NCBI RefSeq assembly: GCF_038002605.1
Contig: NZ_JBBOCT010000001.1
Location: 3,658,001 to 3,722,000, forward strand
DNA: 64,000 nucleotides
Reading direction: 5' to 3'
From: Bacillus sp. FSL K6-3431
GTDB lineage: Bacteria > Bacillota > Bacilli > Bacillales > Bacillaceae_C
Part shown: piece by piece, positions 19,094-64,000 of the stretch
Layout: each line of letters begins with the position of its first letter
Position numbering within the stretch: the first letter of the stretch is position 1
Made by a program: the position numbers and the translations under genes
Notes under the pieces: model-generated
What the model was told of the DNA's origin: nothing
What the model saw: only the letters and a program-made list of their open reading frames with translations
Databases searched by the model: none

Positions 19094-19267
19094 TTAATCT
19101 AACAGTCGATTATTTTCATCAACAGACATTACTTTTGCCGATTGGGAAGCTTCCCCTGGATACAGGATACCTTTACCTCTACACACACTGCAATTATATT
19201 GCCAACCTTCATCATCAGAAAGCATTCCAGTTCCTTCACACGCTTTACATGTATTTTCTCTGTCCAT
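19094..19267 (-). CDS. Small DnaJ-like zinc-finger protein (YuiA-like)
   Basis: A 57-codon gene on the minus strand, ATG at 19265-19267 and TAA at 19094-19096. GGAGGG lies about 10 bases upstream. The protein has two CxxCxGxG motifs, CKACEGTG and CSVCRGKG, which are the zinc-binding knuckles of the DnaJ central domain; single-unit proteins of this sort occur in Bacillus (compare YuiA). It would bind one Zn2+ and may assist redox or chaperone functions; the role is unknown. It lies between the aconitase gene and the Asn-rich gene. Confidence 0.75.
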   Translation of the reverse strand: MDRENTCKACEGTGMLSDDEGWQYNCSVCRGKGILYPGEASQSAKVMSVDENNRLLD

Positions 19268-19355
19268 TAAAGGTACCCTCCAATAAAAATTATTTTGATC
19301 TTTCTTTATTTATGAACCCACCTCTACAATGTTTCAGCTTGGCAAAACGAGTTCA

Positions 19356-21311
19356 CTATGTAGTACTTTTTTGCCGATCTTTCACCCAGTTGATCATTCC
19401 GCCCTTTAGCATTACTTCGACCTGCCGATCTGATAGGGAATGTCTAACGCTTATTTGTAGATCTTTTCCTTTGACATGAATAGTAAATTCGTTTCCTTCT
19501 TTTACTTTATTTCGCAAATTAAAAAGCTGAAGAACATCACCCTCATCTATCTTTTGATAATCTTCTTCATGAACAAAGTTGATTGGTAGCACTCCAAAGT
19601 TAACAAGATTTTGCCAATGGATTCGAGCGAAGTCTTTTACTAATGCAACGCGCAAGCCGAGGTATCTTGGTGCAAGTGCAGCGTGCTCACGGCTTGATCC
19701 CTGTCCATAATTAGAACCTCCAACTACAGCATGTCCACCTTGATTAACACTTGCCATTCCACGTGTATAATACGTTTTATCAATAATTTCAAAGGTGAAT
19801 TTGCTGATTTCGGGAAGATTGCTTCTAAAAGGAAGAACTCGAGCCCCCCCGGCAAGTATTTCATCAGTTGAAATATTATCTCCCATTTTTAACAGGATAG
19901 GCACTTCCAAAGTATCTTCCATCTCGCCCATTTTAGGTATTGAGGCGATATTAGGTCCTTTGTATAACACGACTTTTCTAGCATCCTTAGACGGTAGCGG
20001 CTCATCTAGTAAATTCAAATCTATGGTTGGTTTCTTTGGTTCTTGAACTTTTGGATATGGAATGTCCATTGTTCGTGGATCTGTGATTTTCCCTGTCAGT
20101 GCTGAGACTGCAGCGGTCTCAGGGCTACATAAAAAGACACTATCTTCTCTTGTTCCAGAACGCCCAGGGAAATTACGGGGTGTTGTTCGTAAACTATTCC
20201 GTCCAGTTGCAGGTGCTTGTCCCATTCCAATACAACCATTACAGCCTGCTTGATGCAATCGTGCACCAGATTGAAGCAGACTTGCGATATGGCTTTCTTT
20301 TACTAAATCAGTTAACATTTGTCTTGAAGTTGGGTTAATGTCAAAGGAAATTCCCTTCGCAATTTGTTTTCCGTTAACAATTTCAGCGGCTATGGCGAAA
20401 TCACGGAACCCGGGATTTGCGGATGAGCCAATATATGATTGATAAATAGGTGTGCCCGCTACTTCTGTCACTGCCACAACATTTCCGGGACTTGAGGGCT
20501 TAGCAATTAATGGTTCTATTTCAGATAAATTTATTTCTTCATCAATATCATATGTTGCTCCCTTATCGGCAATTAACTCTATCCAGTCATTCTCACGATT
20601 TTGTTCCATTAAAAAACGCTTGATCTCATTATCTGATGGGAAAACAGTCCCTGTTGCTCCTAATTCAGCACCCATATTAGCTATAACGTGGCGGTCCATC
20701 GCACTTAATGCATCTACTCCTGGCCCGTAATATTCAATTACTTTCCCAACACCACCCTTCACATCATGTCTACGTAGTAGTTCCAAAATAACATCCTTTG
20801 AACTCACCCAGTCGGATAGTTCTCCAGTTAGTTTTATCCCCCATACTTGAGGTGTCTTTACATAGAAAGGCTCACCTGCCATTGCTAAAGCAACATCCAT
20901 TCCTCCGGCACCCATCGCCAACATCCCCATACATCCATTCGCACATGTATGGCTATCAGATCCTAGCAGAGTTTTCCCCGGTTTGGCCAGTCGTTGCATA
21001 TGAACGGGATGGCTAACTCCATTTCCCGGGCGGCTATAGTATAATCCGAAGCGTTGTGTAGCACTTTGTAAAAACAAATGATCATCAGGATTTTTACTGT
21101 CAACTTGAATGAGGTTGTGATCAACATATTGGGCCGATGCTTCTGTTTTTACTCGATCTAATCCCATTGCTTCCAGCTCCAACATCACCATTGTTCCGGT
21201 GGCATCTTGGGTTAGCGTTTGATCAATTTTTAACCCAATTTCTTTCCCCGGAATCATTTCACCGGAAACAAGATGCGATTGTATTAGTTTTTGGGTAACA
21301 TTAAGTGGCAT
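19356..21311 (-). CDS. Aconitate hydratase, Aquifex/mitochondrial-like short type
   Basis: A 651-residue member of the aconitase superfamily, which interconverts citrate and isocitrate through a [4Fe-4S] cluster. Cluster cysteines are seen in GSDSHTCANG and in GCNGCIGMG. The C-terminal swivel domain contains GGSNYGQGSSREHAAL. It is shorter than the usual Bacillus CitB (about 900 residues) and matches the 640-660-residue class (TIGR01342-like). It may be a second aconitase or a hydratase for a related acid such as homoaconitate or 2-methylcitrate; sequence alone cannot decide. The ATG follows AAGGAGG. Monocistronic. Confidence 0.85.
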   Translation of the reverse strand: MPLNVTQKLIQSHLVSGEMIPGKEIGLKIDQTLTQDATGTMVMLELEAMGLDRVKTEASAQYVDHNLIQVDSKNPDDHLFLQSATQRFGLYYSRPGNGVSHPVHMQRLAKPGKTLLGSDSHTCANGCMGMLAMGAGGMDVALAMAGEPFYVKTPQVWGIKLTGELSDWVSSKDVILELLRRHDVKGGVGKVIEYYGPGVDALSAMDRHVIANMGAELGATGTVFPSDNEIKRFLMEQNRENDWIELIADKGATYDIDEEINLSEIEPLIAKPSSPGNVVAVTEVAGTPIYQSYIGSSANPGFRDFAIAAEIVNGKQIAKGISFDINPTSRQMLTDLVKESHIASLLQSGARLHQAGCNGCIGMGQAPATGRNSLRTTPRNFPGRSGTREDSVFLCSPETAAVSALTGKITDPRTMDIPYPKVQEPKKPTIDLNLLDEPLPSKDARKVVLYKGPNIASIPKMGEMEDTLEVPILLKMGDNISTDEILAGGARVLPFRSNLPEISKFTFEIIDKTYYTRGMASVNQGGHAVVGGSNYGQGSSREHAALAPRYLGLRVALVKDFARIHWQNLVNFGVLPINFVHEEDYQKIDEGDVLQLFNLRNKVKEGNEFTIHVKGKDLQISVRHSLSDRQVEVMLKGGMINWVKDRQKSTT

Positions 21312-50772: not shown

Positions 50773-50814
50773 ATTAAATGATAAATAAAGGTAATAGAAT
50801 TGTTGAGGGTAACT

Positions 50815-51765
50815 ATGAAAACTTGGTATATGATTATAACTCTTATTCTAGCGTCGCTTCTGTCTCTTTTCGTAGGTGTGAGTAATATTTCACCTCTTCA
50901 TTTGCTAGATTTTCAATCGGAAGAAACGCAGATTTTTTTAATAAGTCGTCTGCCTCGCCTTATGGCAATCATATTGGCTGGAGCTGGTATGAGTATTGCA
51001 GGCTTAATTATGCAGCAGTTGAGTCGTAACAAATTTGTTTCCCCGACTACTGCCGGTACACTCGATGCAACCAGGCTTGGTATCCTCGTCTCTATGTTAT
51101 TATTTGCGAATGCAACGATGCTAGAAAAAATGGCTGTAGCTTTTGCCTTTGCCTTAGCTGGTACATTTTTATTCATGCAAATATTAGATCGAATTAAGTT
51201 CAAGGATGCAATTTTCATCCCACTTGTGGGACTTATGTTTGGTAATATTTTATCTTCCGTAACGACTTTCTTTGCTTACAAAGCAGACGTTATTCAAAAC
51301 ATGTCTGCGTGGTTGCAAGGAGACTTTTCTATGATTATGAAAGGTCGGTATGAGCTTTTATATATTAGTATTCCCGTCTTAATTATTGCTTATTTGTATG
51401 CAAACCGTTTTACCGTAGCAGGAATGGGAGAGGACTTTTCGAAGAACCTTGGCCTCGCATATAAACGGGTTGTGAACATAGGCTTAATACTTGTTGCGCT
51501 TATTACAGCAACTGTTGTTTTGACTGTTGGGATGATCCCATTTTTAGGTTTAATTATTCCTAACATTATTTCTATAGCTAAAGGCGACCATTTACAAAAG
51601 ACTTTACCACATACAGCATTACTAGGTGCCACGTTTCTTCTGATTTGCGATATATTGGGCCGTGTGCTCATTTATCCATACGAAATTTCTATCAGTTTAA
51701 TGGTAGGGGTAATCGGAAGCGGTATTTTCTTATACTTACTGTTCCGGAGGAAAGCATATGCGTAA
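50815..51765 (+). CDS. yclN: Iron-siderophore ABC transporter permease 1
   Basis: A 316-residue FecCD-type permease. It resembles B. subtilis YclN (petrobactin importer) in RLPRLMAIILAGAGMSIAGLIMQQLSRNKFVSPTT at about residues 43-77 (key residues the R-L-P-R-L and the FVSPTT), and LQGDFSMIMKGRYELLY. It forms the membrane channel with YclO. ATG 50815 follows GAGGG; a TTG at 50800 is possible. Under Fur control by the boxes upstream. The operon continues with yclO and yclP by overlapping genes. Confidence 0.9.
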   Translation: MKTWYMIITLILASLLSLFVGVSNISPLHLLDFQSEETQIFLISRLPRLMAIILAGAGMSIAGLIMQQLSRNKFVSPTTAGTLDATRLGILVSMLLFANATMLEKMAVAFAFALAGTFLFMQILDRIKFKDAIFIPLVGLMFGNILSSVTTFFAYKADVIQNMSAWLQGDFSMIMKGRYELLYISIPVLIIAYLYANRFTVAGMGEDFSKNLGLAYKRVVNIGLILVALITATVVLTVGMIPFLGLIIPNIISIAKGDHLQKTLPHTALLGATFLLICDILGRVLIYPYEISISLMVGVIGSGIFLYLLFRRKAYA

Positions 51766-52708
51766 CTCGACGAAGATCGCCATCCTTTGCTTGGTCGCGG
51801 CGGGATGTTGTAGCCTGTATTTATTTCATGGATTAAACGGTAGCTTCGATTATGCGCTACCGAGAAGAGGAATTAAAGTTCTTGCGATGGTATTGACTGG
51901 GCTAGCCATATCCTATGCAACCATCGTGTTTCAAACAATTACCCATAATAGAATTTTAACACCAAGCATCATGGGTCTTGATTCGTTATACTTACTTATC
52001 CAGACAGTGGCGATATTCTTTTTAGGGTCAAATCACGTTACGATTGTAAATAAACAATTGAATTTCACTTTTTCTGTAATAATGATGGTCGTTTTCGCAT
52101 TGCTACTCTATCATTTCTTATTTAAAAAAGGGCAACAACCGATTTACTTTTTACTTTTGGTCGGTATTATTATTGGTACTTTTTTCCAAAGTATCTCTAC
52201 ATTTTTACAAGTCCTTATTGACCCGAATGAGTTTCAAATCGTCCAAGACCGTATGTTTGCGAGTTTTAATAATGTAAACGGTGATCTGGTTTGGTTATCA
52301 CTTGTTCTTATCGCTATCGTTATTGCATTCGGTTGGCGAACGATTGCATATCTGGATGTGTTGTCATTAGGAAGAGAGACTGCAATCAATTTGGGTGTCT
52401 CCTATGACAGAATTGTAAAGCAAATGCTTGTTACTGCAGCTATTTTAATTGCTATTTCTACAGCTTTAGTTGGACCTATTACGTTTTTTGGTTTAATTGT
52501 TGCGAATTTGTCCTATCAGTTTTTCCGAACATATAAGCATCGGATTTTAATTAGCGGGGCAGTTGCGATGAGTGTGATTGCGCTAGTTGGCGGACAATGG
52601 GTTGTAGAGCGAGTGTTCACATTCTCCACAACACTTAGTGTCATCATTAATTTTATTGGTGGAATATATTTCATTTATTTATTGCTGAAGGAGAGTCGAT
52701 CGTCATGA
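51758..52708 (+). CDS. yclO: Iron-siderophore ABC transporter permease 2
   Basis: A 316-residue FecCD-type permease, partner of the preceding one. Text such as FDYALPRRGIKVLAMVLTG, TIVFQTITHNRILTPSIMG and VGPITFFGLIVANLSY fits YclO. It overlaps yclN by 8 bases, with GGAGG inside yclN as ribosome site. About ten membrane segments. Confidence 0.9.
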   Translation: MRNSTKIAILCLVAAGCCSLYLFHGLNGSFDYALPRRGIKVLAMVLTGLAISYATIVFQTITHNRILTPSIMGLDSLYLLIQTVAIFFLGSNHVTIVNKQLNFTFSVIMMVVFALLLYHFLFKKGQQPIYFLLLVGIIIGTFFQSISTFLQVLIDPNEFQIVQDRMFASFNNVNGDLVWLSLVLIAIVIAFGWRTIAYLDVLSLGRETAINLGVSYDRIVKQMLVTAAILIAISTALVGPITFFGLIVANLSYQFFRTYKHRILISGAVAMSVIALVGGQWVVERVFTFSTTLSVIINFIGGIYFIYLLLKESRSS

Positions 52709-53466
52709 TTCAAGTACGTAGCTTAACGAAATTATATGGGAAGAAGCGAGTAGTTGAAGATGTCACGGTTAATATCCAACGTGGTCAAATTACATCGTTT
52801 ATTGGGCCGAACGGGGCAGGTAAATCTACGTTGCTTTCTATGGTAAGTCGTCTTCTTGCTGCTGATACTGGCGAAGTGCTTGTAGATAATACAGATGTCA
52901 GAGGCATGAAATCAAATGATTTTTCAAAAAAAGTATCGATTTTGAAGCAGTCTAACTATATGAATGTGCGCTTAACCATTCGGGAACTTGTATCATTCGG
53001 ACGTTTTCCATATTCAAAAGGTCGGTTAACTCCGAAAGACAAAGAAATGGTCGATCAAGCAATTGAATATATGGCTTTGGCAGATATGGAAGATGCGTAT
53101 CTTGATGAGCTATCTGGTGGACAACGCCAACGAGCATTTATTGCGATGGTTATTGCACAAGATACAGATTATATTTTACTAGATGAGCCACTGAATAATC
53201 TCGACATGAAACACTCTGTTCAGATTATGAAAATATTACGAAGACTTGTTGATGATTTAGGGAAAACAGTAGTCATTGTTCTCCATGATATTAACTTCGC
53301 ATCGGTCTATTCTGATAGAATTGTTGCATTAAAGGATGGGAGAGTTGTAAAAGATGGTCCGACCGAAGAAATAATTCAGTCAGACTCATTAAAAGAAATT
53401 TACGACATGGACATTCCAATCAAGCAATTAAGCAATTGTCGAATATGTGTTTATTTTAATTCATAA
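52705..53466 (+). CDS. yclP: Iron-siderophore ABC transporter ATP-binding protein
   Basis: A 253-residue ABC ATPase. Walker A is GPNGAGKST (residues 34-42), the signature LSGGQRQR near 137, Walker B DYILLDEPLNNLD near 155, and the switch His in VLHDINFA. It energises the yclNO permease pair and overlaps yclO by 4 bases (ATGA). The fourth gene of the Bacillus operon, yclQ for the substrate-binding lipoprotein, does not follow; about 500 bases of non-coding sequence come next. Confidence 0.92.
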   Translation: MIQVRSLTKLYGKKRVVEDVTVNIQRGQITSFIGPNGAGKSTLLSMVSRLLAADTGEVLVDNTDVRGMKSNDFSKKVSILKQSNYMNVRLTIRELVSFGRFPYSKGRLTPKDKEMVDQAIEYMALADMEDAYLDELSGGQRQRAFIAMVIAQDTDYILLDEPLNNLDMKHSVQIMKILRRLVDDLGKTVVIVLHDINFASVYSDRIVALKDGRVVKDGPTEEIIQSDSLKEIYDMDIPIKQLSNCRICVYFNS

Positions 53467-53974: not shown

Positions 53975-55852
53975 ATGATCGGTGTGATTGCACCTTACTC
54001 TCAGTTTAGAGTAGAAGTAGAGAACATATCTGGAAACTTGAATATCCCTGTTGTAGTAGAAGTTGGTGCTTTGAGATCTGGATTAGCTAAAGCAAGGAAA
54101 ATGATTAGAGATTACGGTGTGAAAGTAATAATTGCAAGGGGTCCCACAGCAAGTTTCCTTAAAAAAAAGTTGGATATCCCTATCATAAAGATAGATGTCA
54201 CGAATTTTGACATTATGAAAACTTTAAGTGATGCAAAAAAAATAGACGATACCATTGTATTAATTGATCATGTCGAAAACCATGGGAGGAATGATTTAAA
54301 GGCCATACAAGAAATCCTTAATATCGACATTCATTTGAAGGAATTCGAACATGAAAGGGATATTATAGATCAAATTGATGAAATTGCTAAAAAGGGTGAA
54401 CAAAGACTAATTGTAGGAACGGCAGAATGTATGGAGAAAACAGCTGGAAAAAAGGGAGTACAATCCTTTATTGTTTTTTCGCAAACAGATTCCATAACAG
54501 AATCTCTATGGAGAGCGAAGGAAACGCTTGAGCATTTCGCCAAGGAAGAGATGAAGCAAAAGCATTTGGAGGCGGTTATCTCCCATGCATTCGCTGGAGT
54601 AATATCGACCGATCAATTCAATAATGTAACCGTATTTAATGATGTGGCAGGAAAGCACTTAGGTATTCGTGCAACTGATATTATAGGGCGTAATATCGCA
54701 AATATCCATTTGCCGCTGTTCAAGAAGTTAATAGGAGATTCTAAAGCCGCCACAAAGAAAGTGGTTAAAAATGGAAATAAAAAATATGTGTTAAATCGAG
54801 TTTGTCTTGACAATATGGGAATGGTTATTCATTTTCAAGAAGCAGAGGATGTTTTACAGATAGATACAAAAATTAGAAGTGAATTATATCATCGTAGATT
54901 TTATGCCAAGTATGAGTTTGACGAACTTGTTTTTCAAAGCGACATTATGAATCGAGTGATTTCGTTGGCCAAAGCTTACGCTAAATCGAGTAGTAATATT
55001 TTGATCTATGGAGAGAGTGGAACTGGAAAGGAATTAATTGCGCAAAGCATACATAATGAAAGTGGACGTAAATATGGACCTTTTATTGCAATTAATTGCG
55101 CAGCACTACCGGAAAATCTACTAGAGAGTGAATTATTTGGTTATGAGGACGGTGCCTTTACAGGGGCGAAGAAAGGAGGAAAAGCGGGACTGTTTGAAAT
55201 GGCACATGGAGGTACCATTTTCCTAGATGAAATTGGAGATATTGCACCAGCATTGCAAGCAAGATTGTTGAGAGTATTACAAGAAAAAGAGGTTCGGAGA
55301 ATTGGCGGAGAAAAAATTATTCCTGTTGACATAAGGGTAGTTTCCGCGACAAATAAAGACTTGTTGGAGTCAATTCAAACAGAGGAATTTAGAAGCGATT
55401 TATACTATCGACTAAATATTTTACACATTCATCTCCCTGCACTTAGAGATCGAAAAGAGGATATTGACCTTCTTATTGATAGGTTGCTTAAGAAACATAA
55501 TGGAGATTTCAATTTGATTTCAAGAACGACAAGAGAGATATTGAATAAATATTACTGGCCAGGAAATATTCGCGAGCTTGAAAATGTCATAGAACGGGCT
55601 GTAGCAGTTGGATCGCATTTTCAAGGACAGATTATCGATCTTTTACCTAAGCGGGTTGCTTTTGATTCCGGAAAAGTAAATGAAGAAGAGTCGGTAGAAT
55701 ATGTGAAAGTGAAGATTGGTAGTCTTGAAGAGATGGAAAACCAAATATTTGATACATTGGGAGCTAAATACGAAGGGAATAAAACTGAGCTTGCTGATCA
55801 ACTTGGGATTAGTAGAACAACATTATGGAAGAAAATGAAAAGAGTAAATTAA
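53975..55852 (+). CDS. Sigma-54-dependent activator with PrpR-type sensor domain
   Basis: A 625-residue enhancer-binding protein. Residues 1-180 resemble the PrpR_N domain (IARGPTASFLKKKLDIPIIKIDVTNFDIM at 49-77, key residues R-G and the P-I-I). About 195-300 is a PAS domain (GVISTDQFNNVTVFNDVAG). About 315-545 is the AAA+ domain with GESGTGKE near 346 and the sigma-54 contact loop GAFTGA near 392, and FLDEIGDI. The C-terminus is a Fis-type helix-turn-helix (TELADQLGISRTTLWKKMK). PrpR-type sensors respond to organic acids or their CoA forms. A sigma-54 promoter lies at 56102, so it very likely activates the catabolic genes that follow. The ligand is unknown. Confidence 0.92.
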   Translation: MIGVIAPYSQFRVEVENISGNLNIPVVVEVGALRSGLAKARKMIRDYGVKVIIARGPTASFLKKKLDIPIIKIDVTNFDIMKTLSDAKKIDDTIVLIDHVENHGRNDLKAIQEILNIDIHLKEFEHERDIIDQIDEIAKKGEQRLIVGTAECMEKTAGKKGVQSFIVFSQTDSITESLWRAKETLEHFAKEEMKQKHLEAVISHAFAGVISTDQFNNVTVFNDVAGKHLGIRATDIIGRNIANIHLPLFKKLIGDSKAATKKVVKNGNKKYVLNRVCLDNMGMVIHFQEAEDVLQIDTKIRSELYHRRFYAKYEFDELVFQSDIMNRVISLAKAYAKSSSNILIYGESGTGKELIAQSIHNESGRKYGPFIAINCAALPENLLESELFGYEDGAFTGAKKGGKAGLFEMAHGGTIFLDEIGDIAPALQARLLRVLQEKEVRRIGGEKIIPVDIRVVSATNKDLLESIQTEEFRSDLYYRLNILHIHLPALRDRKEDIDLLIDRLLKKHNGDFNLISRTTREILNKYYWPGNIRELENVIERAVAVGSHFQGQIIDLLPKRVAFDSGKVNEEESVEYVKVKIGSLEEMENQIFDTLGAKYEGNKTELADQLGISRTTLWKKMKRVN

Positions 55853-55868
55853 GTAATATGTTTACTTG

Positions 55869-55887
55869 TTGAACAATCGGTGTTCAA
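55869..55887. promoter_or_regulatory. Candidate upstream activator site
   Basis: TTGAACA and TGTTCAA form an exact inverted repeat with a 5-base spacer (ATCGG), 215 bases before the sigma-54 promoter, a usual distance for enhancer sites. Confidence 0.5.
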
Positions 55888-56023
55888 AATAAAAACATTG
55901 CTGTTTTTATTATGAACGAGGAGATGTGTGGACAGATTGTTTATTCGTATGAGTACTCTATATTTTATACACTTTTTTATTTAATATAAAAATGAAGGCG
56001 ATTACCAATAAGGTGATCCCTTA

Positions 56024-56066
56024 CACTCGAAACCTTGTATAAGTTAAGGTGTTAGGGTGTTTTTTT
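56024..56066 (+). terminator. Terminator of the activator gene
   Basis: An imperfect hairpin, CACTCGAAACCTT with AAGGTGTTAGGGTG, followed by TTTTTTT. Confidence 0.65.
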
Positions 56067-56101
56067 GTCTGAAATTAAATATTTTACGTTTTTTTTTATT
56101 G

Positions 56102-56118
56102 TTGGCACGCAACTTGCA
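56102..56118 (+). promoter_or_regulatory. Sigma-54 (-24/-12) promoter
   Basis: TTGGCACGCAACTTGCA: TGGCAC, five bases, TTGCA, matching the sigma-54 consensus fully. The expected start is about 12 bases beyond the GC, just before the ribosome site of the first catabolic gene. Confidence 0.93.
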
Positions 56119-56154
56119 AGAGTATAAGTGAATACAAATTAGGAGGAATAAAAT

Positions 56155-57123
56155 ATGGACAATCATCATTTCTTAAACCCACCACAACCGGAAGAACTAG
56201 ATTTGCAAAATGTCATATATGAAAAAAAGGGTGGAATTGCTACCATTACGATTAATCGTCCTGAGGTTTATAATTGCTTAAATTTTCAAACGCTGAAGGA
56301 AATGACACGTGTCTTTGAAATTGTTTCTTGGGATGACGAAGTTGGGGTAATTGTTTTAACAGGTTCAGGAGACAAAGCATTCTGTACAGGTGCTGATATG
56401 AAAGAACAAAATAATGAAATTTTAGAAAGACCACGCAATTATTGGAAATGGATGGGACAATTTATTGATGCTCACAAGAAGTTGCTTGATATAGGAAAAC
56501 CAACGATTGCAAGATTAAATGGCATTGTAGTAGGTGGTGGTAATGAGTTTAATATGAACTGTGATTTAGCAATCATGGCTGATCATAGTTATATCCGCCA
56601 GGTTGGTAATTCTCATGGAAGTGTAGCTGCTGGTGGAGCAACACAATGGCTCCCAATCATGGTAGGAGATCGTCGTGCGCGTGAAATTTTGTGGCTAAAT
56701 GAAGAGATTAGTCCTGAAAAGGCTTTGGAATGGGGATTAGTTAACCAAGTTGTACCATATGAACAATTGGATGAAGCTGTTGAAATCATGGCAAAGAAAC
56801 TATTGAACAAGCTTCCTGAGTGCATGCGTTATACAAAAGAACAAACAAACTTCTGGAAAAAAATGCCGCTTGATTTGACAGTTGGCCATGCCCGTGACTG
56901 GCTAACTGTTCATACAGCAAACTATGAAACTCATGAAGCGATGCGTGCTTTTAGCGAAAAACGCTTGCCAGATTACAAGATGCTTCGTGAACGGATGAGC
57001 TCTGGAGATTCATACGAGCATATGTGGGGAGCTCCAGCACTTGATTGTTCGGAATGCGGGGCGAAGGATATCCCTGAGCACTTCAAACACTGTGGAGTTT
57101 GTGGTTCACCATTAAATAAATAA
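56155..57123 (+). CDS. BamA/enoyl-CoA-hydratase-like enzyme with C-terminal zinc ribbon
   Basis: A 322-residue crotonase-superfamily protein, about 60 residues longer than a usual enoyl-CoA hydratase. The oxyanion parts are GADMKEQ and IVVGGGNEFNMNCDLAI. The segment NEFNMNCDL...QVGNSHGSVAAGGATQWLPIMVG (about 126-174) is closer to the ring-opening hydrolases BamA/Oah and BadI than to simple hydratases, by memory of those families. After about residue 250 an extra region ends in a zinc ribbon: C298-x2-C301-x11-C313-x2-C316. It is the first gene behind the sigma-54 promoter. A hydrolytic ring-opening role is a hypothesis; a plain hydratase is the alternative. Confidence 0.8.
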   Translation: MDNHHFLNPPQPEELDLQNVIYEKKGGIATITINRPEVYNCLNFQTLKEMTRVFEIVSWDDEVGVIVLTGSGDKAFCTGADMKEQNNEILERPRNYWKWMGQFIDAHKKLLDIGKPTIARLNGIVVGGGNEFNMNCDLAIMADHSYIRQVGNSHGSVAAGGATQWLPIMVGDRRAREILWLNEEISPEKALEWGLVNQVVPYEQLDEAVEIMAKKLLNKLPECMRYTKEQTNFWKKMPLDLTVGHARDWLTVHTANYETHEAMRAFSEKRLPDYKMLRERMSSGDSYEHMWGAPALDCSECGAKDIPEHFKHCGVCGSPLNK

Positions 57124-57369
57124 AGGTGGAATGGGAGTGACCTGTAATAGCCCGACAAGCACAAGGCGAATTGCGAGGGTTCAGATCTACCTCTACCACA
57201 GCAATTTGGCTTGTGACCTCAAGGGAATGATAGATACTGGAGCTAGACAAAAAATGCAATTTATATATAAAAATTTAATGATAGTTTATACATTATTGTA
57301 AAATGAAATATCTTAAATTATTGTTTCTGATCAAACAAATTGTGTAGTTATTTTATTGTAATTGCATAA
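57124..57369. other. Structured intergenic region
   Basis: ACAAGC (57155), AATTGC (57169) and GAGG (57175) pair in order with CCTC (57190), GCAATT (57201) and GCTTGT (57209), making a compound stem with bulges. No T-run follows directly. It lies between the first catabolic gene and the permease gene and could cut or process the transcript. Confidence 0.45.
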
Positions 57370-57384
57370 ATGTAAGCGGTTTTA
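57370..57384. promoter_or_regulatory. Catabolite-type (cre-like) site
   Basis: ATGTAAGCGGTTTTA fits the CcpA site WTGNAANCGNWNNCW at all but one position, 95 bases before the permease gene. It suggests carbon repression, if functional. Confidence 0.45.
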
Positions 57385-57478
57385 TTGGTGCTAAATTAAG
57401 TGACAGTAAAGAATGAATTTAAATGTATTCTAATTGGGAGTTTATTTCAGAGTGTTTGAATAATTAGGGGGATCATTT

Positions 57479-58846
57479 ATGAGAAAATCAATGTCTGAAA
57501 GAGTAGCGGATGCATACAGTAAATATTTCCCAGATGCTTTTATATTTGCACTCGTTTTATCACTTTTGGCTATTTTAATGGCTACTATATTTACTGAATC
57601 CTCAGCAATCAATGTATTAGGTTATTGGTTCGATGGATTTCCAATGCTATTTACATTTGCATTCCAACTTATTATTACTTATGCAGCAGCACTTGTACTC
57701 GTCGATACACCAATTGTCCAGCGAATGATTAAAAAAATGGCACGTAAAATTAAGACACCGACCTTTGCTTACGTTTCAACAAGTATTATTGGGGCCTTAA
57801 CCTCATTTTTAGGTTGGTACTTTGGCCCGGTTGTTACGTCACTTTATGCGAGGGCCTTAGGTCAAAACGTAAAAGGTGTTGATTATCGCCTGTTGGCTGC
57901 GGTCGCGTATTGTTCATTTACAATCTCACTTACAGGAATATCAGGAACCATTCCTTTGTTTGTAGCAACAGAAGGAGCACTTACTGAAATGTTGGGTGGA
58001 CTTTATACCTTGGATCGAACAACATTTTCAGTTTTAAATATGGTTACTGCTTTTGCCATTGTTTTAGTTACAACCATTATCTTTTATTTTATAGGAAAAA
58101 ATAAGAAGGAAATTGTGACGTACCATGATCTTGCGATCGTAAAGCCTGGAGAGCAAGCTGCAAGTATAGATGTGGAAATAACGTCAACTAATCAAACACA
58201 TACAACATTTGCCGAGAAAGTGAATCATTTCCGTCCAATCCTCTTTATATTTGGTTTTCTTGGGCTTATTTATCTTGTTTATTATTTTGGGAAAAATGGG
58301 ATTGATGGATTAAATTTGAATTCAGTTGCGTTTGTGTCGATCATATTAGGATTTCTTGTACACAAAAATCCAGTTACATATGTCGACTCATTTTCAAGAA
58401 ATATTCCAGCAACGAGTAGTATTGCAATGCAATTTCCAATTTATGGGGGGATTGCATCTGTATTAGTCGGATCGGGGCTAACGATAAAACTATCCGAGTG
58501 GATGGTTAGTATATCAACGGAAATGACTTTCCCGATATATACATTTTTAGTTACAGGTGTAATTAATTTATTTATACCTTCAGCTGGTTCTCAATTTACT
58601 GCTACCGCACCGTTTATCATACCGGCTGCTGTTGAACTGGGAGTAGAGGTTCCACGTGCAATTCTATCAATCACATTTGGGGATATATGGACAAACCTTA
58701 TTCAGCCGTTTTGGGCATTATTATACTTCCCAATTTTGGCATTGGGTACACGCTTAACTGTCCGCGACTTCATGGGATATTGCCTACCGATTTTGGTAGC
58801 GGTTGGGGCTATTTGGATTCTTGGGCTTTTGCTTTTACCACTTTAA
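57479..58846 (+). CDS. AtoE-type short-chain fatty-acid transporter
   Basis: A 455-residue membrane protein with 10-12 segments. Text such as RVADAYSKYFPDAFIFALVLS at the start, SFLGWYFGPVVTSLYARALG and LFIPSAGSQFTATAPFIIPAA fits the AtoE family (TIGR00366), which imports short-chain acids such as acetoacetate or butyrate. RBS GGGGGAT. It is followed by an acyl-CoA ligase gene, so imported acid would be activated next. The actual substrate is unknown. Confidence 0.88.
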   Translation: MRKSMSERVADAYSKYFPDAFIFALVLSLLAILMATIFTESSAINVLGYWFDGFPMLFTFAFQLIITYAAALVLVDTPIVQRMIKKMARKIKTPTFAYVSTSIIGALTSFLGWYFGPVVTSLYARALGQNVKGVDYRLLAAVAYCSFTISLTGISGTIPLFVATEGALTEMLGGLYTLDRTTFSVLNMVTAFAIVLVTTIIFYFIGKNKKEIVTYHDLAIVKPGEQAASIDVEITSTNQTHTTFAEKVNHFRPILFIFGFLGLIYLVYYFGKNGIDGLNLNSVAFVSIILGFLVHKNPVTYVDSFSRNIPATSSIAMQFPIYGGIASVLVGSGLTIKLSEWMVSISTEMTFPIYTFLVTGVINLFIPSAGSQFTATAPFIIPAAVELGVEVPRAILSITFGDIWTNLIQPFWALLYFPILALGTRLTVRDFMGYCLPILVAVGAIWILGLLLLPL

Positions 58847-58914
58847 CGATAAAGCATACGAACTTCATCCACCTACAAAGGGAACGAAGGTAGGGTATTT
58901 AGGAGGAAAAAAAT

Positions 58915-60339
58915 ATGAAGCTTTCAACATCTATTCCTTATTATTATAAGTCGATTGATTTTAATAAATTAGTAAAAGAATATGAGCCACCTATTGAATA
59001 TATGGAAGGTGGGTGGTTGTGGGAAAGAGAGCAGATTGAATGCACACAGTTTAGGCGACTACAGGCTACTTTGGCCCGCGGGGAGGAAATCCCTTTTTTT
59101 CAGAGGTTATGGAAAAAACACGATTTCCATCCAAGTGATGTAAAAAGTATCGCGGATATGCATAAAATCCCTCAATATACGATTGATGATATACGAGAGA
59201 GCATTGATCTTGAGCCACCATTTGGAGATTATCAAAAATATCATTTTGAAGATGGAACCTACGAGCCGCTGCGCTTTTATACTAGTGGTGGTACAACTGG
59301 AGCACCGCGGCCAACAATTTATTCAGCATGGGATAGAGAAGTGGGTGCAATTTTGAGTGCGAGAACTTTTTATCTGCACGGCATTCGGCCAGGGGACGCA
59401 GTCATGAATTCATGGGCATACTCCACACATAATGCAGCATGGATTATGGATCATGGTCTTTGGCATTGGCTAGGATGCACACCTGTTACAACTGGGACAG
59501 GTAATGTGACTCCTACGGAAAAACAAGTAGAATTTGCACAAACATTCGGTGTAAGTTCAATTTTAGCAACTTCAGATTACTTGGTTCATATCGGAAATAC
59601 CGCCATGAAAATGGGAATTGATCCAAAAGTAGATCTAAAACTTAAAACACTATCGGCATTCGGGAATAAAGAGCCGGTGCAAAAAATGTTTGGATGTCCA
59701 GTTTATGATTCTTATGCGTTTCATGAAGTTCAATACGTTGCTGCAGAATGTCAGGCTGAAAACGGATTGCATATTTTTGAAGATGCTTTCATTGTTGAGG
59801 TTGTTGATTTTGAAACAGGTAAGCCATTGCCACCGGGCTATATGGGAAATATTGTTGTGACAGCGCTTTATAAAACAGGAACACAGCAGATCCGTTATAA
59901 CATACAGGATATATCAGCTAGCTATGAAATAGAACAATGTTCATGTGGAAGTTGGCATAAAAAAATTGATTATTTTCAAGGTAGAAGCGATAACATGGTC
60001 AAATTGCGGGGAATCAATGTCTGGCCAGAAATACTAGGCGAAATTGTTAGTAAAAATCCGAAGGTCAATGGAGAATATTTTTGCTTTGTTGATACGTTAA
60101 GAATTGATGGAGAGGCCGGACGTGATGAGATGACAATCCTCGTAGAGCCAAAGTTTGCAAGTGTTGATGCATTTACATTACAACAAGAGCTTGAGAATGA
60201 ATTAAAACGAAAGATTGGTGTGAAAATTAATGTGCAAATTGTTGAGGAAGATTCATTGCGTCCTTTAACAGGCCACGGATCAAGAGCAAAGCTAAAGCGC
60301 TTTGAAGAGCGAAGACTGGGGGCTCCAAAATGTTTGTGA
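58915..60339 (+). CDS. PaaK-like acyl/aryl-CoA ligase (AMP-forming)
   Basis: A 474-residue adenylate-forming enzyme of the phenylacetate-CoA ligase branch. The ATP loop is YTSGGTTGAPRPT near residue 121; YDSYAFHEV replaces the usual Y-G-x-T-E motif; the hinge is GRSDNMVKLRGINVWPEILGE near residue 360. CSCGSWH is the usual cysteine pair of the branch. It is some 40 residues longer than PaaK. It would turn the imported acid into its CoA thioester. AGGAGG lies 9 bases before the ATG. It overlaps the dehydrogenase gene by 10 bases. Substrate unknown. Confidence 0.88.
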   Translation: MKLSTSIPYYYKSIDFNKLVKEYEPPIEYMEGGWLWEREQIECTQFRRLQATLARGEEIPFFQRLWKKHDFHPSDVKSIADMHKIPQYTIDDIRESIDLEPPFGDYQKYHFEDGTYEPLRFYTSGGTTGAPRPTIYSAWDREVGAILSARTFYLHGIRPGDAVMNSWAYSTHNAAWIMDHGLWHWLGCTPVTTGTGNVTPTEKQVEFAQTFGVSSILATSDYLVHIGNTAMKMGIDPKVDLKLKTLSAFGNKEPVQKMFGCPVYDSYAFHEVQYVAAECQAENGLHIFEDAFIVEVVDFETGKPLPPGYMGNIVVTALYKTGTQQIRYNIQDISASYEIEQCSCGSWHKKIDYFQGRSDNMVKLRGINVWPEILGEIVSKNPKVNGEYFCFVDTLRIDGEAGRDEMTILVEPKFASVDAFTLQQELENELKRKIGVKINVQIVEEDSLRPLTGHGSRAKLKRFEERRLGAPKCL

Positions 60340-61376
60340 AAGAGATGAAAGGAGTCATTTTGGAAGAACACGGAAATCTTGACAAGCTATTATATAAACG
60401 TGATTTACCAATCAATGTTATTAAAGAAGATGAAATTAGAGTTCAAGTGAAGTTTTGTGGATTAAATCATTTAGATATTTGGCTGCGCAAAGGTGGGACC
60501 GGGGATCGTCTATCATTTCCGCGTATTTCGGGAAGTGATGTAGTTGGGATTGTAACTGAAATTGGGCTGAATGTCACCAATGTGTCTAAGGGTGATACGG
60601 TTGTACTCTATCCTGGAAGAGGCTGCGGGGAATGTGCAGCTTGCTCCAAAGGTAGAGAAACGTTATGTAGAAGCTTTGAAGTACTTGGTTATAACAACGA
60701 TGGCGGCTACTGTGAATATGTCCAAATCCAGGGGAAAAGAGCAGTAAAGATTACGGATGACAAGTTGGAAGAATGGGCAGGGGTTCCTGTCGCATATGTA
60801 ACTGCTTGGAATGCACTTATAACAAAAGGGAAAATGACTGCAAAAGATACTGTTGTCATATGGGGAGCTTCTGGTGGTCTTGGCTATGCGGCCCTTTCGA
60901 TTGCAAAAGCATTCGGGGCAAGGGCCATTGGTATTGTCAGTTCTGAAGAGAAGATCTCTTTTTTAAAGAAAAAAGGGTTTGATGATGTTGAATTTATTGT
61001 TCGCGACTCTGAAGTTGGAAAAAAGATTCGTGACTTAACTAATAAAGCTGGAGCAGATCTTGTATTAGATCATGTTGGGAGCAAAACTTTTAATGAAAGT
61101 TTAAAAATGCTTGGGAGAGGAGGGAGACTCTCGTTTTGTGGCATCACAACAGGACCAATCGCCGAAGTAGACTTGCGATTGATTTTTGGAAAGCAGATTA
61201 CGATTACAGGTTCGTGGATGGGAGATTTACGCGATTTTCATGAAGTCATTGTATTCCTGTTGAGAACGAGGGCTTACCCGCATATTGACGAAGTATTTCC
61301 ATTGGAAGAAGTGAAAGAGGCCCAGAAAATGCTTGAAGAAGGCAAGCATATTGGGAAAATCATTCTACAAATATAG
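60330..61376 (+). CDS. Zinc-type alcohol dehydrogenase (MDR family)
   Basis: A 348-residue medium-chain dehydrogenase. The catalytic zinc site starts CGLNHLDIWLRKG; the structural zinc site is GCGECAACSKGRETLC (four cysteines); the NAD fold is WGASGGLGYAALSIAKAFG. Such enzymes oxidise secondary or allylic alcohols. In benzoyl-CoA degradation the enzyme Had is of this class; similarity to it is suggested by gene context, not shown. It begins inside the ligase gene at ATG 60330; ATG 60345 is an alternative. Confidence 0.87.
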   Translation: MFVKEMKGVILEEHGNLDKLLYKRDLPINVIKEDEIRVQVKFCGLNHLDIWLRKGGTGDRLSFPRISGSDVVGIVTEIGLNVTNVSKGDTVVLYPGRGCGECAACSKGRETLCRSFEVLGYNNDGGYCEYVQIQGKRAVKITDDKLEEWAGVPVAYVTAWNALITKGKMTAKDTVVIWGASGGLGYAALSIAKAFGARAIGIVSSEEKISFLKKKGFDDVEFIVRDSEVGKKIRDLTNKAGADLVLDHVGSKTFNESLKMLGRGGRLSFCGITTGPIAEVDLRLIFGKQITITGSWMGDLRDFHEVIVFLLRTRAYPHIDEVFPLEEVKEAQKMLEEGKHIGKIILQI

Positions 61377-61386
61377 GAGACATTCA

Positions 61387-61499
61387 AATCGGTATAAAGT
61401 AAGCAATCGTTAATAATCGGCCTATGATCGGTAATAAGGTGACCATAATCGGAATAACCATTCAGAGATCCGTAGTAATGAGGTGATAATCGGTAATAA
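61387..61499 (+). repeat. Six-unit 20-21 bp degenerate tandem repeat
   Basis: The core AATCGGTAATAA recurs at 61387 (AATCGGTATAA), 61405 (AATCGTTAATAA), 61426 (GATCGGTAATAA), 61447 (AATCGGAATAA), 61467 (GATCCGTAGTAA) and 61488 (AATCGGTAATAA). Steps are 18, 21, 21, 20 and 21 bases, i.e. two helical turns. GGTGA follows three units. It fills the gap between the dehydrogenase and 3-hydroxyacyl-CoA dehydrogenase genes. Confidence 0.8.
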
Positions 61500-61548
61500 A
61501 ACGCTTTATTGATGGAGTTATGATAATAGAGTATTCAGGAGGACAGCT

Positions 61549-62409
61549 ATGAATGTAAACCGTATTTTAGTAGTCGGATCGGGTATTATGGGGGGCGGAA
61601 TTGCTTATGCAAGTGCTATTGGAAGCTTTGAAACAATCATTTGCGACATTAAGCAAGGCAGTCTGGATAAAGCGAAGGAATATATTGAAGGAGTGCTTGA
61701 AAAAGGTGTGAATCGAAATAAAATCACGGTTGAACAGAAGGAAGCTGCAAATAACAATATTTCGTATACAACGGATTTGAAATTGGCAGCAGAGAAGGCT
61801 GACTTTGTTATCGAGGCAGTTCCTGAAGTAAAAGCCATTAAACAACAGGTATTTGAACAGTTGGATAAATATACGAGAGAAGAAGTCATTCTCGCTACAA
61901 ATACATCAACGATGAGCCCAACTGAAATTGGTTCTTACACAAAGCGTCCTGAAAAAGTGATTGCGATGCACTTTTTTAATCCGGTGCCATTAATGAGGCT
62001 TGTTGAAATAGCGCGCGGTCTTGAAACAAGTGACGAAACTGCTGGAGATGTCAAAGCTGTTGCATCCCAAATGGGCAAGGAAACAGTATTAATCAATGAG
62101 TTCCCAGGTTTTGTAACAAGCCGGATCAGCAGCATGGTCGGAAACGAAGCTTTCAATATGTTAATGGAGGGTGTAGGAACGCCTGAGGAAATTGACAAAG
62201 CAATTGAGCTTGGACTAAATTATCCGATGGGACCTTTTAAACTAGGAGATTTGGTTGGTCTTGATACAAGATTGAACAACCTAGAATACTTACATACTAC
62301 TCTTGGCGAACGCTTCCGACCAAGTCCACTTCTAGTGAAATACGTAAAAGCAGGAAGACTGGGACGTAAAACAGGCAAGGGGGTTTATGATTATAATGAC
62401 GAATCTTGA
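61549..62409 (+). CDS. 3-hydroxyacyl-CoA dehydrogenase
   Basis: A 286-residue NAD-dependent enzyme of the Hbd/PaaH type. The Rossmann loop is GSGIMGGGIA (residues 10-19), the family signature MHFFNPVPLMRLVEI near residue 140 with the catalytic His, and the C-terminal FKLGDLVGLDTRLNNLEYL. It oxidises 3-hydroxyacyl-CoA to 3-oxoacyl-CoA. AGGAGG lies 8 bases upstream. It overlaps the next gene by 14 bases. In this cluster it may handle 3-hydroxypimeloyl- or 3-hydroxyadipyl-like CoA; this is inference. Confidence 0.93.
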   Translation: MNVNRILVVGSGIMGGGIAYASAIGSFETIICDIKQGSLDKAKEYIEGVLEKGVNRNKITVEQKEAANNNISYTTDLKLAAEKADFVIEAVPEVKAIKQQVFEQLDKYTREEVILATNTSTMSPTEIGSYTKRPEKVIAMHFFNPVPLMRLVEIARGLETSDETAGDVKAVASQMGKETVLINEFPGFVTSRISSMVGNEAFNMLMEGVGTPEEIDKAIELGLNYPMGPFKLGDLVGLDTRLNNLEYLHTTLGERFRPSPLLVKYVKAGRLGRKTGKGVYDYNDES

Positions 62410-63199
62410 TGTGGCAGAGTTGTTCATGGAATACAATTATTTACGCGTATCCATTGAAGATCTCATCGGCACGATCCAAATTTATCGTCCGGAAAAAAGA
62501 AATGCGATGGACTCAGATAGCTGGGCAGAGCTTGACCTCGCTATAAAACAATTGAACAATGACGATCAAGTCCGTGTGATCGTAATTACGGGACATGAAA
62601 AAACGTTTGTGGCAGGAGCAGACATTCAATGGATTCACGACAGGAAGCCATTGGATATATATGGTCTAGCAGTTCAAGATGTTTTGTTAAATGTATATAG
62701 ATCGTATAAACCAGTAATCGGGGCCATTAATGGCTATGCACTTGGAGGAGGTTGTGAATTAGCTCTCTCTTGTGATATACGTGTTGGAAGTGAAACAGCA
62801 ATGATGGGACAGCCTGAGATTAATTTAGGTATTTTACCTGCAGGGGGTGGTACTCAACAGCTAACAAAAATTATCGGCTTGGCTAAGGCGAAAGAATTAA
62901 TTTTAACCGGTGACATGATTGATGCGCATGAAGCACATAGGCTTGGTCTATTAAATCATGTTGTATCAGCTGAGAAGTTAATGGAAAAGGCGTACGAGAT
63001 TGCCAATAAAATTGCGGAGAAGTCACCTATTGCTGTGAAAATGGCGAAGATTGCACTGAATGAAAGCACAACAACCGATTTAGCTTCAGGACTTGCATTA
63101 GAAAAATCATTGCAGGCTGTGCTATTTAGTACAGAAGATAAAAAAGAGGGAACTAAAGCATTTTTAGAAAAAAGAAAAGCAGTTTTTAAAGGTGAGTGA
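62396..63199 (+). CDS. Enoyl-CoA hydratase/isomerase family protein
   Basis: A 267-residue crotonase-type enzyme. Oxyanion parts AGADIQW and YALGGGCELALSCDIR; catalytic glutamates expected in GGGCELA and QPEINLGILPAGGGTQ. This is a regular hydratase, unlike the zinc-ribbon protein at 56155. I chose ATG 62396 (AAGGGGG 12 bases upstream); ATG 62387 and ATG 62426 (which gives the more usual 257 residues) are alternatives. It ends one base before the thiolase gene. Confidence 0.9.
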   Translation: MTNLDVAELFMEYNYLRVSIEDLIGTIQIYRPEKRNAMDSDSWAELDLAIKQLNNDDQVRVIVITGHEKTFVAGADIQWIHDRKPLDIYGLAVQDVLLNVYRSYKPVIGAINGYALGGGCELALSCDIRVGSETAMMGQPEINLGILPAGGGTQQLTKIIGLAKAKELILTGDMIDAHEAHRLGLLNHVVSAEKLMEKAYEIANKIAEKSPIAVKMAKIALNESTTTDLASGLALEKSLQAVLFSTEDKKEGTKAFLEKRKAVFKGE

Positions 63200-63200
63200 C

Positions 63201-64000
63201 ATGGAGCAAAGAGACGTATATATTGTTGATGCAGTTAGAACCCCAATTGGAAGATACAAGGGTGCATTAAAGTCAGTTCGACCGGATGACATGGCTGCAA
63301 TAGTAATTAAAGGGCTATTAGACAGGAATCGGACTATTCCAGTTACTGAAATTGAAGAGGTGGTTCTTGGTAATGCCAACGGAGCGGGGGAAGAAAATCG
63401 AAATGTAGCGCGTATGGCTGTGCTGCTCGCAGATCTACCAATTGAAGTAAGTGGAACTACGTTGAACCGTCTATGTGGTTCAGGTCTTGATGCCGTTAAT
63501 TATGCTGCAAGAGCTATTCTGGCAAATGAGGGTGACATATTTATTGCAGGCGGTACGGAGAGTATGACTAGAGCTCCTTTTGTCATGGGCAAACCCGAGA
63601 CTGACTTTCCTCGCGGAAATATGGAGTTGCTAGATACAACGATTGGTTGGAGATTCACAAATCCAAAATTCGAGAAACAATATGGTGCGGATAGCATGCC
63701 GCAAACAGCAGAAAATGTTGCGCAAAGATACGAGATTTCCCGTGAGGCGCAGGACCAGTTTGCCCTTGAGAGTCAATTAAAAGCAAAAACAGCGATGGAG
63801 AAAAGTAGATTTGCGGATGAAATCATTCCAGTTGAGATCAAAGATCGAAAAGGGAAAGTAACCGTAGTTAGTACAGATGAGCATCCGAGATCGAATTCAA
63901 CAATAGAAGGTCTACAAAAGCTGCGCCCTATTTTTGAAAATGGTACAGTAACAGCAGGAAATGCTTCAGGTGTGAATGATGGTGCTTCCGTTCTACTCCT
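63201..64000 (+). CDS. Acetyl-CoA C-acyltransferase (thiolase), N-terminal part
   Basis: The frame is open to the window end; about 266 of an expected 390-400 residues are seen. The start YIVDAVRTPIGRYKGAL is typical, and the nucleophilic cysteine is C92 in LNRLCGSGLDAV. GGTESMTRAPFV and NASGVNDGAS fit beta-ketoadipyl-CoA/PcaF-PaaJ-like thiolases as well as general ones. It would cleave the 3-oxoacyl-CoA to acetyl-CoA. Ribosome site AAGGTGAG. The C-terminal catalytic His and Cys lie outside the window. Confidence 0.93.
   Translation, partial: MEQRDVYIVDAVRTPIGRYKGALKSVRPDDMAAIVIKGLLDRNRTIPVTEIEEVVLGNANGAGEENRNVARMAVLLADLPIEVSGTTLNRLCGSGLDAVNYAARAILANEGDIFIAGGTESMTRAPFVMGKPETDFPRGNMELLDTTIGWRFTNPKFEKQYGADSMPQTAENVAQRYEISREAQDQFALESQLKAKTAMEKSRFADEIIPVEIKDRKGKVTVVSTDEHPRSNSTIEGLQKLRPIFENGTVTAGNASGVNDGASVLL

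Follow-up and report, generated by a model that had tools for sequence, protein, structure and literature searches.

A zinc-ribbon crotonase as candidate ring-opening hydrolase in a sigma-54-dependent operon of Bacillus

Bacillus sp. FSL K6-3431 carries a sigma-54-dependent operon that we read as an oxygenase-free route for an alicyclic acid. It lies at the end of the window, the whole stretch of 64,000 nucleotides that was analysed (contig NZ_JBBOCT010000001.1; G000:C1:3658001-3722000, where G000 is the genome under study). One of its genes (56155..57123, + strand) encodes a crotonase of 322 amino acids (aa), here called Z, the proposed ring-opening hydrolase in place of BamA/Oah. The explanation that we favour, with confidence somewhat above even, is a sigma-54-controlled alicyclic-acid operon in which Z would open the ring. 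Its main evidence comes from other Bacillota, whose benzoyl-CoA-type clusters have a member of the Z family in the place of BamA.

Z in benzoyl-CoA-type clusters of other Bacillota

Relatives of Z (57-61% identity) occur in eight Bacillota genomes outside Bacillales, presumably anaerobes, and all lie in benzoyl-CoA-type clusters. In seven of these eight loci Z adjoins bzdN or bamB. It is directly 5' of bzdN (class I reductase) in L034, L063, L064 and L065, and directly 5' of bamB (class II reductase) in L035, L036 and L037. All four bzd genomes have bzdN over the cut-off, and bzdO is over it in both that were scanned (two of the four loci). Against the structure of Geobacter BamB (4z3w), the bamB product of L037 reaches 1186 bits; Fe-S, Hdr-like, FdhD and FlpD-type proteins follow it. 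The bamB products of L035 and L036 share 64% and 75% identity with that of L037. The exception is L062, with a benzoate-CoA ligase (651.5 bits, cut-off 375.25) and CoA-transferase-like, SDR-like, thiolase-like and Had-like genes; a benzoyl-CoA reductase was not seen within 20 kb. For these anaerobic clusters, TIGR02262 was scanned on two ligases and TIGR03201 on four dehydrogenases.

Canonical BamA is over the cut-off in none of the eight genomes, four of which are 83-90% complete. Three canonical BamA loci were examined: BamA is directly 5' of bamB in G706 and G712 and stands apart in G705. A partial BamA in G707 (333.4 bits), cut by the contig end, was not counted as over the cut-off. These placements support the Z family as the substitute for BamA. 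In the anaerobic relatives, Z itself most likely carries out the BamA/Oah step. Because these relatives occupy the slot of the benzoate ring-opening enzyme, Z probably opens the ring with water and not with oxygen. The hydrolytic ring opening proposed in the initial annotation of this DNA is supported in this way for the Z family, by its place in bam and bzd clusters, and is likely for the window operon.

In a class of 82 genomes, all four bzdN carriers fall among the six Z carriers. These events are not independent, since three carriers share one family. BamA and Z never occur together in this class, and chance alone suffices for that (P 0.68). A lone BamA in L085 speaks against our explanation, and our confidence was lowered slightly for this reason to the level given above.

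Two observations concern the clusters themselves. The bzdO gene of G348 (L034:7020-8338) is split over two overlapping frames, through either a misassembly or a genuine frameshift. By their translations, a pair of genes for metal-dependent-hydrolase-like proteins (of about 590 and 310 aa) stands beside the Had-like gene in several benzoyl-CoA-type clusters (L062:16531-18285, L063:16250-18025 and neighbours).

Family and active site of Z

Z ends in a zinc-ribbon motif (C298, C301, C313 and C316; 57046..57102, + strand), predicted from its sequence to bind zinc. The cysteines are invariant in 48 of 48 alignment rows (the window protein and 47 of 120 homologues among the matches listed). In the crotonase tree all 28 Z rows carry the motif, and the remaining 17 rows lack it. 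The Z rows comprise the window protein, 8 of 10 Bacillales relatives (without L012 and L017), one Actinomycetota protein, the eight from non-Bacillales Bacillota and ten out of the 120 homologues listed. Matches in G707 and G730 (37-39%, ribbon-free rows) were excluded from Z counts. As judged from these sequences, Z heads a crotonase clade marked by the C-terminal motif.

The window protein reaches 152.8 bits against the BamA/Oah profile TIGR03200, about one third of the cut-off of 464.45, and is not a member. Two anaerobic Z proteins (201-205 bits) are also under it. Z differs further from BamA/Oah in its identity of 28-31%, in its ribbon motif and in leaving profile positions 212-263 unmatched. 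On the other hand, both belong to the crotonase superfamily, share the slot 5' of bamB and have the same active-site letters, E-G-S-(A/P). That is, the first Glu is kept, the second Glu is replaced by Gly, Ser is kept and the Asp of MenB and BadI is absent, in 28 of 28 Z rows and three of three BamA rows. We read these columns as catalytic. The term 'BamA-like', used in the initial annotation, is thus borne out by context and active-site letters and not by profile.

Z as an ordinary enoyl-CoA hydratase was rejected. The second catalytic Glu is Gly in all 28 rows, and six rows of the hydratase type form a separate clade (99/98). The initial annotation had held that a place inside these hydratases, with downstream genes of a plain fatty-acid pathway, would contradict ring opening; the tree puts Z outside them, so that objection does not arise. 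By profile, Z is no MenB (1,4-dihydroxy-2-naphthoyl-CoA synthase) either. The MenB structures 2iex and 2uzf are the closest solved ones by sequence. However, MenB closes a ring, the opposite kind of reaction, and its Asp and Tyr columns are not kept in Z. The genome has its own menB within a men operon (L008).

Other crotonases resemble Z. Two ribbon-free proteins (L068:6442-7245 and L069:1897-2682), 37-39% identical to Z and with the same E-G columns, adjoin an apparent 4-hydroxybutyryl-CoA dehydratase-type protein and SDR-like or 3-hydroxyacyl-CoA dehydrogenase-like genes; the L068 neighbourhood also has xanthine-dehydrogenase-type genes. This group is possibly another ring-opening or retro-Claisen enzyme. 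On plasmid pRHL3 of Rhodococcus jostii, a crotonase 41% identical to Z (L090:5001-5786) shares its E-G-S-P letters; the cluster around it encodes an acyl-CoA dehydrogenase, an OB-fold protein plus thiolase, and an SDR.

The operon, its promoter and its conservation

All genes named in the initial annotation were found again at their place and strand, with families assigned by profile. The PrpR-type sigma-54-dependent activator (53975..55852, +) has PrpR_N, PAS-like, AAA+ and Fis helix-turn-helix domains (PF06506, PrpR_N, 103.5 bits; PF00158, 234.8 bits). The sigma-54 promoter TGGCACGCAACTTGCA (56103..56118, +) begins 52 bp 5' of the ATG at 56155. All 11 positions scored against the -24/-12 consensus agree with it, and 2000 mononucleotide shuffles of the intergenic sequence (302 bp) never gave such a score. 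With both activator and promoter present, the operon is sigma-54-dependent.

Beyond Z follow, all on the + strand, an AtoE-type acid permease (57479..58846; SCFA_trans, PF02667, 306.6 bits), a PaaK-like acyl-CoA ligase (58915..60339; best PDB match 4r1l) and an MDR oxidoreductase (60330..61376). A 3-hydroxyacyl-CoA dehydrogenase, HCDH (61549..62409; NF006722, 450.8 bits, cut-off 429), and an enoyl-CoA hydratase, ECH, with both catalytic Glu retained (62387..63199), come next. The last gene encodes a thiolase nearest the 3-oxoadipyl-CoA type (63192..64000), truncated at the window end. Inside the window it has 269 aa; the operon extends beyond 64000, and the complete protein of 407 aa (L006:192-1415) ends at G000:C1:3722415. 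At full length it scores 556.8 bits against TIGR02430 (3-oxoadipyl-CoA thiolase, pcaF), its best equivalog, under the cut-off of 597.

For two enzymes the roles first given to them are not borne out. The MDR had been called a zinc alcohol dehydrogenase acting as Had. It does have the structural zinc ligands. However, the catalytic ones are missing in 10 of 10 operons, with Asn at the Cys place and SD or AD at the His-Glu place, while Cys and HE are present in six of six Had-like proteins. For this reason the MDR is not a Had, and its score as one (78.6 bits) does not make it a member. Its sequence is closer in appearance to C=C reductases. Likewise, the ECH was proposed as Dch in a cluster mirroring the benzoyl-CoA pathway, and this has not been established. 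It scores 90.7 bits against the Dch profile TIGR03189 (cut-off 292.5), and no protein in 15 genomes is over that cut-off.

Ten Bacillales loci (L011-L020) were compared. All ten keep the genes for activator, Z, HCDH and ECH linked, and permease, ligase and MDR are present in nine, L019 being reduced to the four linked genes. The thiolase is adjacent in six. Two loci, L014 and L020, have a divergently oriented activator gene. All ten relatives have a promoter site with 10-11 of 11 positions; in L020 it precedes the permease gene, which is first there. No additional consistently linked gene was seen around these loci. The trait is rare: within the order 3 of 299 genomes have it, and within the phylum 5 of 398, with the genome under study counted in.

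Proposed route, alternatives and neighbouring genes

PF06050 (HGD-D) and PF02730 (AFOR) have no matches in the three Z-bearing Bacillales genomes searched (G000, G046 and G294). Therefore, entry of benzoyl-CoA through either known reductase is not expected. Benzoyl-CoA reductase genes accompany Z at the level of the lineage, but not in these Bacillales genomes, and none was recognised in the stretch after 64000. The initial annotation had named an alicyclic acid as a possible substrate, and these searches agree with it; the substrate, though unproven, is probably such an acid.

We infer the reaction of Z, the order of the steps, the part of the MDR and the substrate as follows. The operon would serve the oxygenase-free, CoA-dependent breakdown of a cyclic carboxylic acid, most likely alicyclic (cyclohexene-type). 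The permease would take up the acid and the PaaK-like ligase convert it to the CoA thioester. The hydratase would introduce water adjacent to the thioester; oxidation of the alcohol to a ring ketone would fall to HCDH (or the MDR). Z would then cleave the cyclic beta-keto acyl-CoA hydrolytically at its C-C bond to yield a (3-hydroxy)pimelyl-CoA-type chain, which HCDH and thiolase may turn into glutaryl-CoA and acetyl-CoA. An HCDH and a thiolase are also a likeness to BamA/Oah systems. 3-Hydroxypimelyl-CoA, the BamA-type product, is slightly favoured over pimelyl-CoA because the operon is without an acyl-CoA dehydrogenase. The Bacillales probably use the zinc-ribbon family for alicyclic-acid ring opening.

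The strongest alternative, which we consider unlikely, is a version of this explanation with another product, a BadI-type route opening to pimelyl-CoA. It would start from cyclohex-1-ene-1-carboxylate, or from cyclohexane carboxylate if an acyl-CoA dehydrogenase encoded outside the operon takes part, and hydration and oxidation would precede the opening. BadI (2-ketocyclohexanecarboxyl-CoA hydrolase, TIGR03210) is a crotonase about 37% identical to Z and opens a cyclic beta-keto acyl-CoA, as proposed here. It is among the best-scoring families for Z, although 172.7 bits are under the cut-off of 467.6 and Z is not a member. An excerpt of PMC9795900 describes aerobic degradation of cyclohexane carboxylate by bad-ali genes in Aromatoleum. 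The bad-ali clusters of Aromatoleum and of Paracoccus plasmids are likewise aerobic, CoA-dependent and oxygenase-free. Two Paracoccus plasmids carry a zinc-poor MDR plus ECH in the vicinity of BadI-type clusters and the Paenibacillus plasmid examined does not, a weak hint at 34% identity. However, the BadI Asp column is Ala or Pro in all 28 Z rows, Z has Glu where BadI has Val, and the three BadI rows are ribbon-free. A topology with Z and BadI/MenB in one clade excluding BamA is marginally rejected (p-AU 0.041). Besides MarR/TetR regulation (PMC9795900), the bad-ali system has an AliA ligase, an AliB dehydrogenase and an SDR. None of these was seen in the Z operon, nor was an acyl-CoA dehydrogenase or BadH-type SDR; AliA, AliB and BadH were not seen next to Z among the Bacillales loci either.

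Less likely still is a plain operon for a short- or branched-chain or unsaturated acid, with uptake, ligation, enoyl reduction by the MDR and ordinary beta-oxidation, in which Z would be an atypical hydratase or isomerase. The SCFA permease, the likeness of the MDR to C=C reductases and the generic HCDH, ECH and thiolase fit it. Against it stand the eight of eight non-Bacillales Z loci in benzoyl-CoA-type clusters, the missing Glu pair and the separate ECH clade. The thiolase also comes closest to the beta-ketoadipyl-CoA type, whose substrates are dicarboxylic chains. That Z is a Dch-type hydratase is slightly more doubtful again: hydratases share the crotonase fold and the 15 genomes leave Dch without a profile match, but BamA-bearing genomes also lack one, so this says nothing special about Z, which sits in the BamA slot 5' of bamB in genomes without canonical BamA and has Gly for the second Glu.

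If ring opening by Z is true, a BamA substitute in Bacillota benzoyl-CoA-type clusters would escape bamA-based surveys, and Z would fill an apparent pathway gap in those genomes. The operon would point to an oxygen-independent ring-opening route in Bacillales. Excerpts of earlier works describe BamR, BamQ and BamA as conserved in every anaerobic benzoate degrader except Rhodopseudomonas (PMC9795900) and put bamA forward as a marker gene ideally suited to anaerobic ring fission (PMC3794298). Others, also in excerpt, report bamB-I, bzdNOPQ and one oah, whose type could not be checked, in D. gibsoniae (PMC4148979), and bzdXYW-like transcripts in a culture dominated by Peptococcaceae transcripts (PMC5852087). 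A full-text literature search, shallow in coverage, met no account of a zinc-ribbon BamA substitute.

Among the neighbouring genes, the rest of L006 after rpoN (about 17 kb) looks unrelated by translations only, no profile scan being made. The rpoN gene (sigma-54) itself lies directly after the thiolase (L006:1525-2862, or C1:3722525-3723862). It is close in L012 too (19259-20593), without a match in the examined stretches of the other nine relatives. Directly upstream of the activator, and upstream in L012 also, the translations suggest an iron-siderophore-type importer of two permeases and an ATPase (window 50800-53466).
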